A stretch of DNA of 51,118 nucleotides, taken from a virus. The DNA lies in the IMG/VR virus record IMGVR_UViG_3300009706_000001, positions 1-51,118 of that record; one strand, 5' to 3'. The stretch's first letter is position 1; each line of letters begins with the position of its first letter. Position numbers and translations under genes: made by a program. This document shows positions 352 through 48,479 of the stretch, in pieces. The notes under the pieces are model-generated. The model saw only the letters and a list, made by a program, of their open reading frames with translations. It searched no databases and was not told the origin of the DNA.

Positions 352-372
352 TTTGGGACATCATGTCCCAAA
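352..372. promoter_or_regulatory. 21-bp palindrome, copy 1 (putative operator)
   Basis: Half-sites TTTGGGACAT and ATGTCCCAAA flank a single central C, a perfect palindrome that extends to 23 bp (351-373). It lies 38 bp upstream of the minus-strand start at 314. Five copies occur in the control region and none was seen elsewhere. Perfect dyad symmetry suggests binding of a dimeric regulator, which is not identified. Confidence 0.7.
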
Positions 373-379
373 AACGGTG

Positions 380-408
380 GCCGTGGTTCGCTTATGCACA
401 GGTATTTG
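380..408 (+). repeat. 29-bp inverted duplication, copy A, with DnaA-box-like core
   Basis: This block matches the reverse complement of 626-654 at 26 of 29 positions. It contains TTATGCACA at 392-400, which fits the DnaA-box consensus TTATNCACA, followed by GGTA. A TGTTAC element just downstream is also shared by both copies with slightly different spacing. The two copies bracket the 49-aa gene at 454-603. Confidence 0.7.
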
Positions 409-453
409 CATGTTACCGAATGAGAACGAGGTGGGATTACTTCGGCGGGAAAA

Positions 454-603
454 CTAACGCGGGCAAAAGTAGTGTCGTATGAACGCCCACCGTGACACCG
501 GAGTGGCCTCGTGATGGACAAGAGGGCCACGCTCACGCCGAGCCTGCCGCTTCCGCTGTTGACGTTTGAGCCGACGCATCTGTTGATTTGCTGTCTGTTG
601 CAT
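454..603 (-). CDS. Small, highly basic early protein
   Basis: This 49-aa protein has a strongly basic Arg/Lys/Gln-rich first half (motif MRRLKRQQRKRQARR). The start at 603 is supported by GAGGAGC eight bases upstream. The frame stays open further upstream, but without a comparable ribosome site. The charge suggests nucleic-acid binding; no family is recognised. The gene lies between the two copies of the 29-bp inverted duplication, and its leader contains copy B with a DnaA-box-like sequence. Confidence 0.6.
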   Translation of the reverse strand: MQQTANQQMRRLKRQQRKRQARRERGPLVHHEATPVSRWAFIRHYFCPR

Positions 604-625
604 GGTAATGCTCCTCGTAACAAGA

Positions 626-654
626 CAGATACCTGTGCATAAGTGAGCCACGGC
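626..654 (-). repeat. 29-bp inverted duplication, copy B, with DnaA-box-like core
   Basis: This is the minus-strand partner of 380-408, with three mismatches. The DnaA-box-like TTATGCACA lies at 642-634 on the minus strand. It forms part of the leader of the gene starting at 603, which may mean it has a promoter or binding-site role. Confidence 0.7.
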
Positions 655-737
655 ACCCTCTGGATGTGCTAGATCCAGATGCGATGCTCCGGCGCGCTGT
701 CCGGGCTGAGTGGTGCTCACTCCCCTGTTATCTTCCG

Positions 738-751
738 CTCCCGCATGGGAG
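738..751. promoter_or_regulatory. Leader hairpin CTCCC-GCAT-GGGAG
   Basis: A 5-bp stem with a 4-base loop has the same arms as the hairpins at 331-345 and 48455-48469. It lies in noncoding DNA transcribed by the leftward promoter. Confidence 0.4.
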
Positions 752-899
752 TTTTCCGCCTTTCGGCACTGGTTGTAACCGATTGATCCTGTCTTCGCAT
801 TGGGGATGGTGGGACCAACGCTGTCGTGTCTCCTCGATACGAAGTAGGTAGAATCACGGTGCGCGGCACCCCGTAGCTCTTGGGATTCGGGTGGACTGT

Positions 900-920
900 T
901 TTGGGACATCATGTCCCAAA
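900..920. promoter_or_regulatory. 21-bp palindrome, copy 2 (putative operator)
   Basis: The half-sites and central C are identical to copy 1. It lies about 100 bp downstream of the leftward promoter at 1051-1022 and just past the terminator at 941-970. Confidence 0.7.
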
Positions 921-940
921 GTCTGTTGCATGGCCACTGG

Positions 941-970
941 AAAAAGAAGAGGCGCGAGCTTCCACTCGCG
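941..970 (-). terminator. Intrinsic terminator close to the leftward promoter
   Basis: On the minus strand the stem CGCGAG/CTCGCG (970-965 with 958-953, 6-base loop) is followed by CC and a T-rich run ending in five T at 945-941. It lies only about 45-75 nt downstream of the expected start of the leftward transcript. It may end a small RNA or act as an attenuator for the early operon. Confidence 0.55.
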
Positions 971-1015
971 TCAGAGCCTGCCATGGCTCTAGGGGCAATA
1001 TTCAGTTGTCAATCT
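941..1015 (-). ncRNA. Candidate small RNA from the leftward promoter
   Basis: A consensus promoter (1051-1022) and an intrinsic terminator (970-941) define a transcript of about 75 nt. It would contain two stem-loops: AGAGCC/GGCTCT (990-985 with 978-973) and CGCGAG/CTCGCG, then a U-rich end. No open frame with a ribosome site is seen in it. It could instead be the attenuated 5' leader of the long early operon. Confidence 0.45.
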
Positions 1016-1021
1016 ATAGTA

Positions 1022-1051
1022 ATTATACCACGTTCTATCTCATTCTGTCAA
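1022..1051 (-). promoter_or_regulatory. Leftward early promoter, sigma-70 consensus
   Basis: On the minus strand TTGACA (1051-1046) and TATAAT (1027-1022) are separated by 18 bp, with an extended -10 TGG directly before TATAAT. Both hexamers are perfect matches. The start point should be near 1015. This is the strongest promoter visible and points into the leftward gene arm. Confidence 0.85.
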
Positions 1052-1082
1052 TGTCTGCCAGACCCCAGACAAAAAGCTGTTT

Positions 1083-1131
1083 CCTCTCCTCTCCTCTCCT
1101 CTCCTCCGCTTATCTCCTCTCCTCTCCTCCT
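1083..1131. repeat. CCTCT pentamer tandem repeat
   Basis: About four and a half CCTCT units (1083-1106) are followed by CGCTTAT and then about three more units. One strand is almost pure pyrimidine. It lies just upstream of the leftward promoter, in noncoding DNA. It may vary in length or adopt an unusual structure. Confidence 0.8.
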
Positions 1132-1211
1132 GGTTCATGCGGGTGCAGGCATGGCACGAGCAGGGCAGGTTTGCGCGGCATGTGAGTCAAGAGTGACAGA
1201 ATGAAGACGAT

Positions 1212-1232
1212 TTTGGGACATCATGTCCCAAA
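1212..1232. promoter_or_regulatory. 21-bp palindrome, copy 3 (operator between divergent promoters)
   Basis: A perfect copy with a central C, extending to 1211-1233. It lies between the leftward promoter (1051-1022) and the rightward -10 at 1327-1332. Its left arm supplies a plausible -35 hexamer for a plus-strand promoter at 1213-1241. Confidence 0.75.
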
Positions 1233-1241
1233 ATATATATT
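1213..1241 (+). promoter_or_regulatory. Possible rightward promoter overlapping palindrome 3
   Basis: TTGGGA (1213-1218, inside the palindrome) and TATATT (1236-1241) are spaced by 17 bp. A protein bound to the palindrome would cover the -35 element. Downstream is the leader of the 169-aa gene. Confidence 0.4.
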
Positions 1242-1323
1242 CAGCTGTAAGTGTAGGAGAACAAAGGATTTATACGAAAGGCAAAAAAAAGATGGTAACT
1301 GGCTGTATTTGACTAGTGTTTTC

Positions 1324-1332
1324 TGATATACT
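1324..1332 (+). promoter_or_regulatory. Possible rightward promoter with extended -10
   Basis: TGATATACT matches the extended -10 form TGNTATAMT. No good -35 is seen at 17 bp upstream, as expected for extended -10 promoters. It lies 50 bp upstream of the start of the 169-aa gene at 1383. Confidence 0.45.
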
Positions 1333-1382
1333 CGTGTTGTTGACGGGTACGGTTTGCCTGCGACATACAGAAGGATAACGCA

Positions 1383-1892
1383 ATGACCGAAAAGGTAGTT
1401 ACAGAGAAGGTTCTGACGATTGGGAATTTGCCCAAGAAAGCCCTCGCATGCGTGAAGGCACTGGTTGCGATGGGTCGCAAGTGCGCAGCGTCGGAGCGCA
1501 ATGCTGCCAATTCTATCCTGGAAACGGGCGCACGCGCGGTCGCCCTGGTCGAGGAGCTTGGTCGCAGCTTGACACTGTCGGAGTATAAAGGTGTGTTCGC
1601 GCAGTTCCGTGACGACTACACGACAGGGGTAGGGACGAGCGAAGCCGCCGCCCGTAAGACTTGGCAGCGTGCGGGATGCTCTGCGACACTGCAGGGTAAA
1701 GGGGTTGCGAAAGCGGGTGGCGTGCGGTCCAAGGGTGGCGCAAAGGGCGGCTCGGAGTCTAAGGCTAACAAGGGACAGTACGCCGAACTGGTGAAGGATG
1801 TAACGGACCTCATCAACAGGGGTCCGGAGCAGTGGCAGATGGCCATCGACCGGATCCAGATCGACCTTGACGCGGTAACCGAAACCGACTAG
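1383..1892 (+). CDS. Unrecognised 169-aa protein of the control region
   Basis: Residues 1-95 are predicted mostly helical, residues 105-130 are a Gly/Lys/Ser-rich linker (motif SKGGAKGGSESKANKG), and residues 131-169 form an acidic helical tail. There are no membrane segments and no clear helix-turn-helix. The start at 1383 has an AAGGAT ribosome site. The gene has its own promoter candidates and a strong terminator, so it is transcribed alone. It is the only plus-strand gene between the divergent promoters and the terminase operon, and it is flanked by palindromes 3 and 4, which makes it a candidate regulator or DNA-organising protein. That role is inferred from position only. Confidence 0.8.
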   Translation: MTEKVVTEKVLTIGNLPKKALACVKALVAMGRKCAASERNAANSILETGARAVALVEELGRSLTLSEYKGVFAQFRDDYTTGVGTSEAAARKTWQRAGCSATLQGKGVAKAGGVRSKGGAKGGSESKANKGQYAELVKDVTDLINRGPEQWQMAIDRIQIDLDAVTETD

Positions 1893-1910
1893 GTCCGACT
1901 GACGATTTAC

Positions 1911-1942
1911 CCCAGTGAGCAACGTGCTCACTGGGTTTTTTT
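1911..1942 (+). terminator. Intrinsic terminator after the 169-aa gene
   Basis: A perfect 10-bp stem CCCAGTGAGC/GCTCACTGGG with loop AACGT is followed by seven T. It lies 18 bp after the stop codon and isolates this gene from the terminase operon. Confidence 0.95.
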
Positions 1943-1972
1943 GTGTCTGCGATTATGCGAAGGGCACAGCGT

Positions 1973-1993
1973 TTTGGGACATGATGTCTCAAA
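1973..1993. promoter_or_regulatory. 21-bp palindrome, copy 4 (one mismatch)
   Basis: The half-sites are as in the other copies, but the right arm reads ATGTCTCAAA and the centre is G. It lies 31 bp beyond the terminator of the 169-aa gene. Confidence 0.65.
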
Positions 1994-48206: not shown

Positions 48207-48419
48207 TTAACTATGTGTATGGCCATCGGGTTCAATGCCCAACCACATGCCGCACCACGGCACCATGACGCAGTCCAGCAGGTGGTCCACGTGTGCGGTT
48301 CTCCGAAAGCTCAGATAGGATTGACGCGGGGTGGCTTCTCGGCAGTAGATGGCCAAGAGTGCTGTCCGTTGCGCGGGCGTAAGTCGTGTCGTGTGTCTAC
48401 GGGGCCTGTGTTTCAGCAT
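48207..48419 (-). CDS. Conserved small phage protein (WCGMWLGIE motif)
   Basis: A 70-aa protein: basic N-terminus, then SYLSFRRTAHVDHLLDC and VMVPWCGMWLGIEPDGHTHS, a C-terminal signature I recognise from many unrelated phages. The ATG at 48419 has AGGAGAAG upstream. The conserved C-terminus suggests a metal- or ligand-binding role; no function is known. Confidence 0.8.
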   Translation of the reverse strand: MLKHRPRRHTTRLTPAQRTALLAIYCREATPRQSYLSFRRTAHVDHLLDCVMVPWCGMWLGIEPDGHTHS

Positions 48420-48444
48420 GGCTTCTCCTATGTTGCGTGAAAGG

Positions 48445-48479
48445 CGAAGAGAGACTCCCACCGTGGGAGCCCCTCTTCG
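48445..48479. promoter_or_regulatory. Long two-part hairpin between early genes
   Basis: Outer arms CGAAGAG (48445-48451) and CTCTTCG (48473-48479) flank the inner stem CTCCCA/TGGGAG (48455-48460 with 48464-48469). There is no T tract. The inner stem is the same as at 331-345. It may be an RNA processing or antitermination site in the leftward transcript. Confidence 0.55.

Follow-up and report, generated by a model that had tools for sequence, protein, structure and literature searches.

Organization of the control region

The window, i.e. the whole stretch of 51,118 nt analyzed here, is a record that is classed as a virus. Its leftward early genes encode DNA polymerase A, thymidylate synthase, ribonucleotide reductase, helicase/primase-like, Sak4-like, DUF932 and GP88 proteins; the rightward late genes encode terminase, portal, scaffold, capsid and internal virion proteins. 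A tyrosine integrase was not found in the window. Searches of INPHARED for close relatives, with the window DNA, TerL and a 169-aa protein of the control region as queries, returned one weak TerL match only, and viral contigs searched with the DUF932 and 169-aa proteins yielded no relatives.

The control region harbors five copies of the dyad TTTGGGACA-N3-TGTCCCAAA, four of them perfect and one with a single mismatch (Table 1), exactly where an earlier note on this DNA, made by reading the sequence, had placed them. Since the first 23 bases of the record are identical to the last 23 (AGAATACGTGCCCTCTCCCCACT), the genome is circular and all copies fall within about 3.7 kb, as that note had assumed. 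Not a single copy occurs in 100 dinucleotide shuffles of the window, even at up to three mismatches, and among all dyads of the window with 7-bp arms only these five recur with the same half-site. The arms comprise 9–11 bp around 3 free bases, and the palindrome often exceeds 21 bp (TTTTGGGACATCATGTCCCAAAA at 351–373; 25 bp in the case of dyad 3).

Table 1. Dyads, genes and transcription signals in and around the control region of the window.
Feature	Start	End	Strand	Remarks
Dyad 1	352	372	none	TTTGGGACATCATGTCCCAAA; TGGGACA core 39 nt before the ATG of the leftward gene 126–314
Dyad 2	900	920	none	perfect; predicted start of the strong leftward promoter lies about 100 bp upstream
Dyad 3	1212	1232	none	perfect (25 bp as 1210–1234); flanked by the leftward promoter on one side and the 169-aa gene start on the other
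Dyad 4	1973	1993	none	one mismatch, TGGGACA...TGTCTCA; directly beyond the terminator of the 169-aa gene
Dyad 5	49399	49419	none	perfect; core 81 nt upstream of the DUF932 ATG (leftward gene)
Leftward promoter	1022	1051	-	TTGACA-18-TATAAT, consensus (12/12 matches); presumed early promoter
Terminator-like hairpin	953	970	-	possible attenuator, about 45 bp downstream of the leftward promoter
62-aa gene	126	314	-	leftward, after dyad 1
49-aa small basic ORF	454	603	-	between dyads 2 and 1; ATG preceded by GAGGAG; read from sequence
DUF932 protein gene	48486	49319	-	leftward, after dyad 5
Extended -10	1324	1332	+	TGATATACT; read from sequence; likely promoter of the 169-aa gene
169-aa protein gene	1383	1892	+	between dyads 3 and 4; ATG preceded by AAGGA
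Intrinsic terminator	1911	1942	+	strong; 11-bp stem, then TTTTTTT; 3' of the 169-aa gene

Dyads 1, 2 and 5 are located downstream of a predicted leftward promoter, mostly away from promoters and within predicted transcribed regions, and dyads 3 and 4 are placed on either side of the 169-aa gene. The claim that several sites precede leftward genes by 38–100 bp holds for dyads 1 and 5 only, which are the only ones close before a leftward start codon with a Shine-Dalgarno sequence; dyad 2 lies about 300 bp before the small gene that starts at 603. All five sites are likely noncoding, as had been stated, yet dyad 2 falls within a 176-aa ORF (454–984) that has no visible Shine-Dalgarno sequence and is probably not a gene. 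The earlier note had further taken a central base of C or G as variation. The argument is invalid, because a central C on one strand reads as G on the other and both describe the same site in opposite orientation; in other phages, the center of the dyad does vary freely. The dyads are ruled out as intrinsic terminators, as the polarity of the adjacent T- or A-tracts is wrong. The promoter proposed for the 169-aa gene was left unscored by the promoter scan because its -35 element is weak.

The noncoding control region also contains a run of TCCTC repeats (1083–1130) before dyad 3 and long G tracts (2056–2092) after dyad 4. Upstream of the terminase genes, an imperfect repeat pair (CTAAC...AAAGGACTT) is found at 2372–2498; it recurs in L008 (7407–7510), a TerL relative of the window. 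The TerL relatives of the window, of which only L008 and L009 extend into the region, contain no such dyads.

Recurrence of the dyad in other genomes

The exact 21-mer has no match in IMG/VR, hence a shorter core was used for scanning. The 17-mer core is found on nine contigs, and four of these (L017, L020, L022 and L024) carry further copies with other central bases. In the form TGGGACA-N3-TGTCCCA, the dyad occurs at 2–6 copies in at least 28 fetched viral loci besides the window. Among the matches listed, most of these loci belong to one group of podo-like phages with conserved gene order, and the dyads outside this group are those of L071, L048/L104, L017 and the window. The closest annotated relatives of the dyad-bearing group by TerL are Pelagibacter phage HTVC027P, phage DSL-LC04, phage 023Pt_psg01 and Planktothrix phage Pag-Yong1. 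In the 15 loci examined, 49 of 72 dyads are located within 140 nt of a start codon that is preceded by a Shine-Dalgarno sequence; one dyad of the podo-like group lies inside a coding sequence. The motif search that the earlier note had proposed thus finds the dyad in multiple copies in other phages, usually a short distance upstream of early-region genes.

The similarity to the window extends beyond the core. The full 18-base form, letter-identical to that of the window, is found in groups of 2–5 on contigs of the L103/L046 sub-group. The half-site is flanked by TT in 54 of 54 cases in this sub-group, like in the window, versus G in 108 of 108 cases in the sister sub-group, and the window flanks TTT/AAA match the L103/L046 sub-group exactly. 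Two further contigs, L086 and L172 (gut-type, with a serine recombinase), were rejected as dyad carriers, as their matches look like unrelated genomic repeats. Among bacterial matches to a 19-mer, six represent one orthologous SAR86-type hairpin and the remainder are scattered.

A small-protein family that co-varies with the half-site

In at least 23 of the motif-selected loci, the gene for a protein of about 140 aa adjoins or overlaps a dyad. We defined the corresponding N3-dyad small-protein family from L082, L103 and their relatives, and further relatives of one of these proteins were then fetched by protein similarity alone, which avoids circularity (some of them are already known contigs). 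All nine new loci obtained in this way that span the whole region contain at least 3 dyads. In eight of the nine, the half-site differs from the search motif and has changed in nearly all copies of the respective genome: to TGAGACA in L153 and L156, where some copies are still hybrid, to TGGCACA in L154 and L155, and to TGATACA in L160–L163. L164 (no dyad) and L165 (one dyad) were both matched only via a short protein end. In the 152 kb of protein-fetched loci there are 47 perfect dyads, which represent four half-site types. Every one of them has a spacer of exactly 3, and neither everted nor reversed control patterns occur in the same 152 kb.

No Pfam or PHROG family fits the ~140-aa family, and fold searches of PDB and BFVD with the family model returned nothing at E <= 0.001. 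The model is confident (mean pLDDT 87.8) and has a helix at residues 81–92, after which come a linker and, at the C-terminus, a helical hairpin.

The half-site has switched at least three times on the protein tree. For each alignment column we asked whether the switched lineage carries a residue that no TGGGACA row of its sub-group has. Column 83 is the only column for which this is the case in all three switched lineages: the residue is D or E in TGGGACA rows, including the distant L103/L046 sub-group, and H, N and G together with TGAGACA, TGGCACA and TGATACA, respectively. Changes in columns 38 and 42, seen in two lineages, arise because the intragenic dyad itself encodes both. Column 87, one helix turn on, holds K, R or Q in TGGGACA rows and K, M and Q in the others; it does not provide a strict code, since L052 has Q together with TGGGACA. 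In the predicted family model, residues 83 and 87 are on the same face of the helix 81–92. The covariation between half-site and column 83 argues that the small protein reads the dyad, and the ~140-aa family protein most likely binds the dyad by means of a short recognition helix. The suggestion that the palindromes form an operator family, for a regulator that the earlier note left unnamed, therefore gains support from two sides: the same dyad is multicopy before genes elsewhere, and its half-site covaries with a helix position of a small protein.

The 169-aa protein of the window

The gene of the 169-aa protein is found about 0.8 kb before an HTH-bearing, terminase-small-like gene and is transcribed rightward, unlike the small-protein gene of the dyad-bearing group. 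The protein has no match in Pfam or PHROG. Its AlphaFold model (protein alone) is poor, with a pLDDT of 46, and hence only the order of helices was used: a predicted helix at residues 87–96 (EAAARKTWQR), a basic linker and a predicted C-terminal helical hairpin. The segment 'EAAARKTWQRA' aligns with 'HEAAQKQWNRC' or 'NDAARKSWxRN' of the family; when anchored at the W, it has A in the specificity column, and the E falls one position before that column.

Among the proteins of the window, the 169-aa protein has the best family score (20–21, versus at most 18.4 for 76 other ORFs). Against the two sub-groups it gives P values of 0.0055 and 0.0058 (overall about 0.006–0.017), with the same helix aligned, and it surpasses all 100 shuffles of itself. 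The HH-align probability of 3–7% is not significant, and a search of the window with the family profile gave no match. As these P values and probabilities fall short of homology, we call the 169-aa protein the best candidate and not a family member. On balance, we favor it as the regulator that reads the dyads of the window.

Alternative explanations

Several other functions may be considered for a repeated dyad in a phage control region. Palindromes of this kind might be bound by a regulator of the host or by a phage protein other than the 169-aa protein. Such an origin is unlikely, although the family membership of the latter is statistically short of proof and other small proteins are encoded in the early region, e.g. 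at 48207–48461, with a weak HTH match. A host regulon as such was rejected as unlikely: in the five bacterial genomes searched whole, the exact dyad is single-copy, apart from one weak site with two mismatches, and the dyads of other phages track a phage protein. The dyads might also act as RNA hairpins in early leaders, involved in processing, stability or translational control. Many sites indeed precede a Shine-Dalgarno sequence by 15–100 nt and would fold into stems of 9–10 bp with a 3-nt loop. We nevertheless regard this as very improbable, as conservation and concerted switching concern the stem, whereas the loop varies freely, the opposite of usual RNA recognition; moreover, some sites are inside a gene or beyond a terminator, and no Rfam match was obtained. 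Symmetric half-sites, a free center, a fixed spacer and concerted change across the stem instead point to a protein dimer on double-stranded DNA. The control region adjoins the terminase genes, which would suit a replication origin or packaging sites; the dyads, however, are dispersed gene by gene over 3.7 kb in the window and over several kb in other genomes, and the repeat pair at 2372–2498, common to the window and L008, is the better candidate for an origin or packaging element. The packaging-related role that had been considered for the dyads finds no support here, and we give this function hardly any credence.

Dispersed centromere dyads are known from N15-type phage-plasmids, and the dyads of the window could likewise resemble parS and be recognized by a protein of the ParB type, as is the case in plasmid-like phages. 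The parS site of F, TGGGACC-AC-GGTCCCA, shares TGGGAC, the core of the half-site, with the window dyads (PMC8357417). Also, an unrelated viral pair, L048 and L104, encodes ParA and ParB together with the same core dyad, TGGGACAC-N-GTGTCCCA. Its copies form an array with a spacing of about 36 bp at the parB end (L104:10911–11000; L048:7539–7591), and one copy is located before parA. This array is likely a parS with a SopB-like half-site, and the centromere reading is a real possibility for L048/L104 but not for the phage of the window. Domain searches of the window record gave no match to the ParB N-terminal domain or to a ParA-type ATPase, whereas positive controls were matched, so that the centromere-like reading offered earlier is not borne out. 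In the window, the sites are scattered and associated with genes, the small protein of the phages that show covariation is a different one, and the spacer of F parS (TGGGACC-N2-GGTCCCA) is one base shorter than that of TGGGACA-N3-TGTCCCA. For the window, a centromere is accordingly a distinctly unlikely explanation.

Proposed mode of action and comparison with known systems

That the dyads are operators of a phage-encoded regulator is very probable. Our main reading, to which we assign a probability of about two in three, is that they are dispersed operators of a small phage-encoded dimeric DNA-binding protein that would control the early leftward genes as well as its own gene. A dimer of the regulator would contact two half-sites TTTGGGACA, 3 bp apart, and the 169-aa gene, flanked by dyads 3 and 4, appears the most likely source of this protein, as a putative counterpart of the ~140-aa proteins. 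The bound protein may then act as a roadblock to elongation, in a stoperator-like manner. Such an action is the simplest at dyads 1, 2 and 5, because these are inside the predicted leftward unit, downstream of the 1051–1022 promoter. It is also the simplest in view of the short gaps (15–100 nt before the start) in which sites are found and which leave no room for a promoter, as in Pag-Yong1. We consider the evidence for roadblock-type repression of early genes to be evenly balanced. The regulator might serve the transition from early to late expression or limit its own synthesis.

It is known that the stoperators of mycobacteriophage L5 and other cluster A phages are asymmetric 13-mers that are bound by a monomer and oriented with transcription, and that their described action is a block of elongation (PMC6550527, PMC9283540). 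As in L5, a short site is repeated many times in small gaps between genes, with most copies away from promoters, and the specificity of the site differs between related phages along with the regulator. The sites of the window differ in being symmetric perfect dyads with an N3 spacer. In L5-type systems the bound repressor also confers immunity. We see no relation to L5 in sequence or fold, and neither an integrase nor a ParA domain was found in the window.

A further parallel in architecture is provided by Planktothrix phage Pag-Yong1 (OL906435; L176, 28000–45000), whose TerL is 46% identical to that of the dyad-bearing group. The dyad GGTTCA-GNC-TGAACC is present 11 times in 17 kb, mostly 17–22 nt before early-gene starts and beside a small-protein gene. 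The center of 3 bp is as in the window, whereas the half-site is GGTTCA instead of TGGGACA. Profile comparison of the 187-aa candidate protein of Pag-Yong1 gave no significant relation. The dyads are apparently unremarked in the annotation of OL906435, and we found no published description of them; a literature search for the dyad motif or for such a system likewise gave no relevant paper.

More tentatively, with odds slightly short of even, the dyads and their protein may represent a regulatory class that has not been described before: a small protein without a matching solved or viral fold would act on operators with a fixed 3-bp center at each early gene. Its helix code, column 83 first, would re-tune protein and operators such that co-infecting relatives ignore each other, and phages whose terminases are unrelated, that of the window among them, would have acquired the operator sequence by separate origin or by its spread. 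Covariation here ties an anonymous repeated DNA site to an anonymous family of small proteins without experiment. If the assignment is true, a group of uncultivated podo-like phages possesses a hitherto undescribed gene control that is stoperator-like but uses a different protein and symmetric sites, and the natural variants already display part of its recognition code.

Related palindromes are also found outside the phage loci. A Rhodoblastus MAG (L034:3880–4290) contains an array of different palindromes, among them TTTGGGACA-N3-TGTCCCAAA, TTTGCGACA-N3-TGTCGCAAA and TTTGAGACA-N3-TGTCTCAAA. Judged by their sequence, these three belong in one class with the phage operators, and several specificities stand adjacent to each other; that the array serves as a decoy is only speculation. 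In Lachnospiraceae (L032:1460–1840 and L035), several palindromes with an ACA-N3-TGT-like center are located between a likely relaxase gene and its neighbor.
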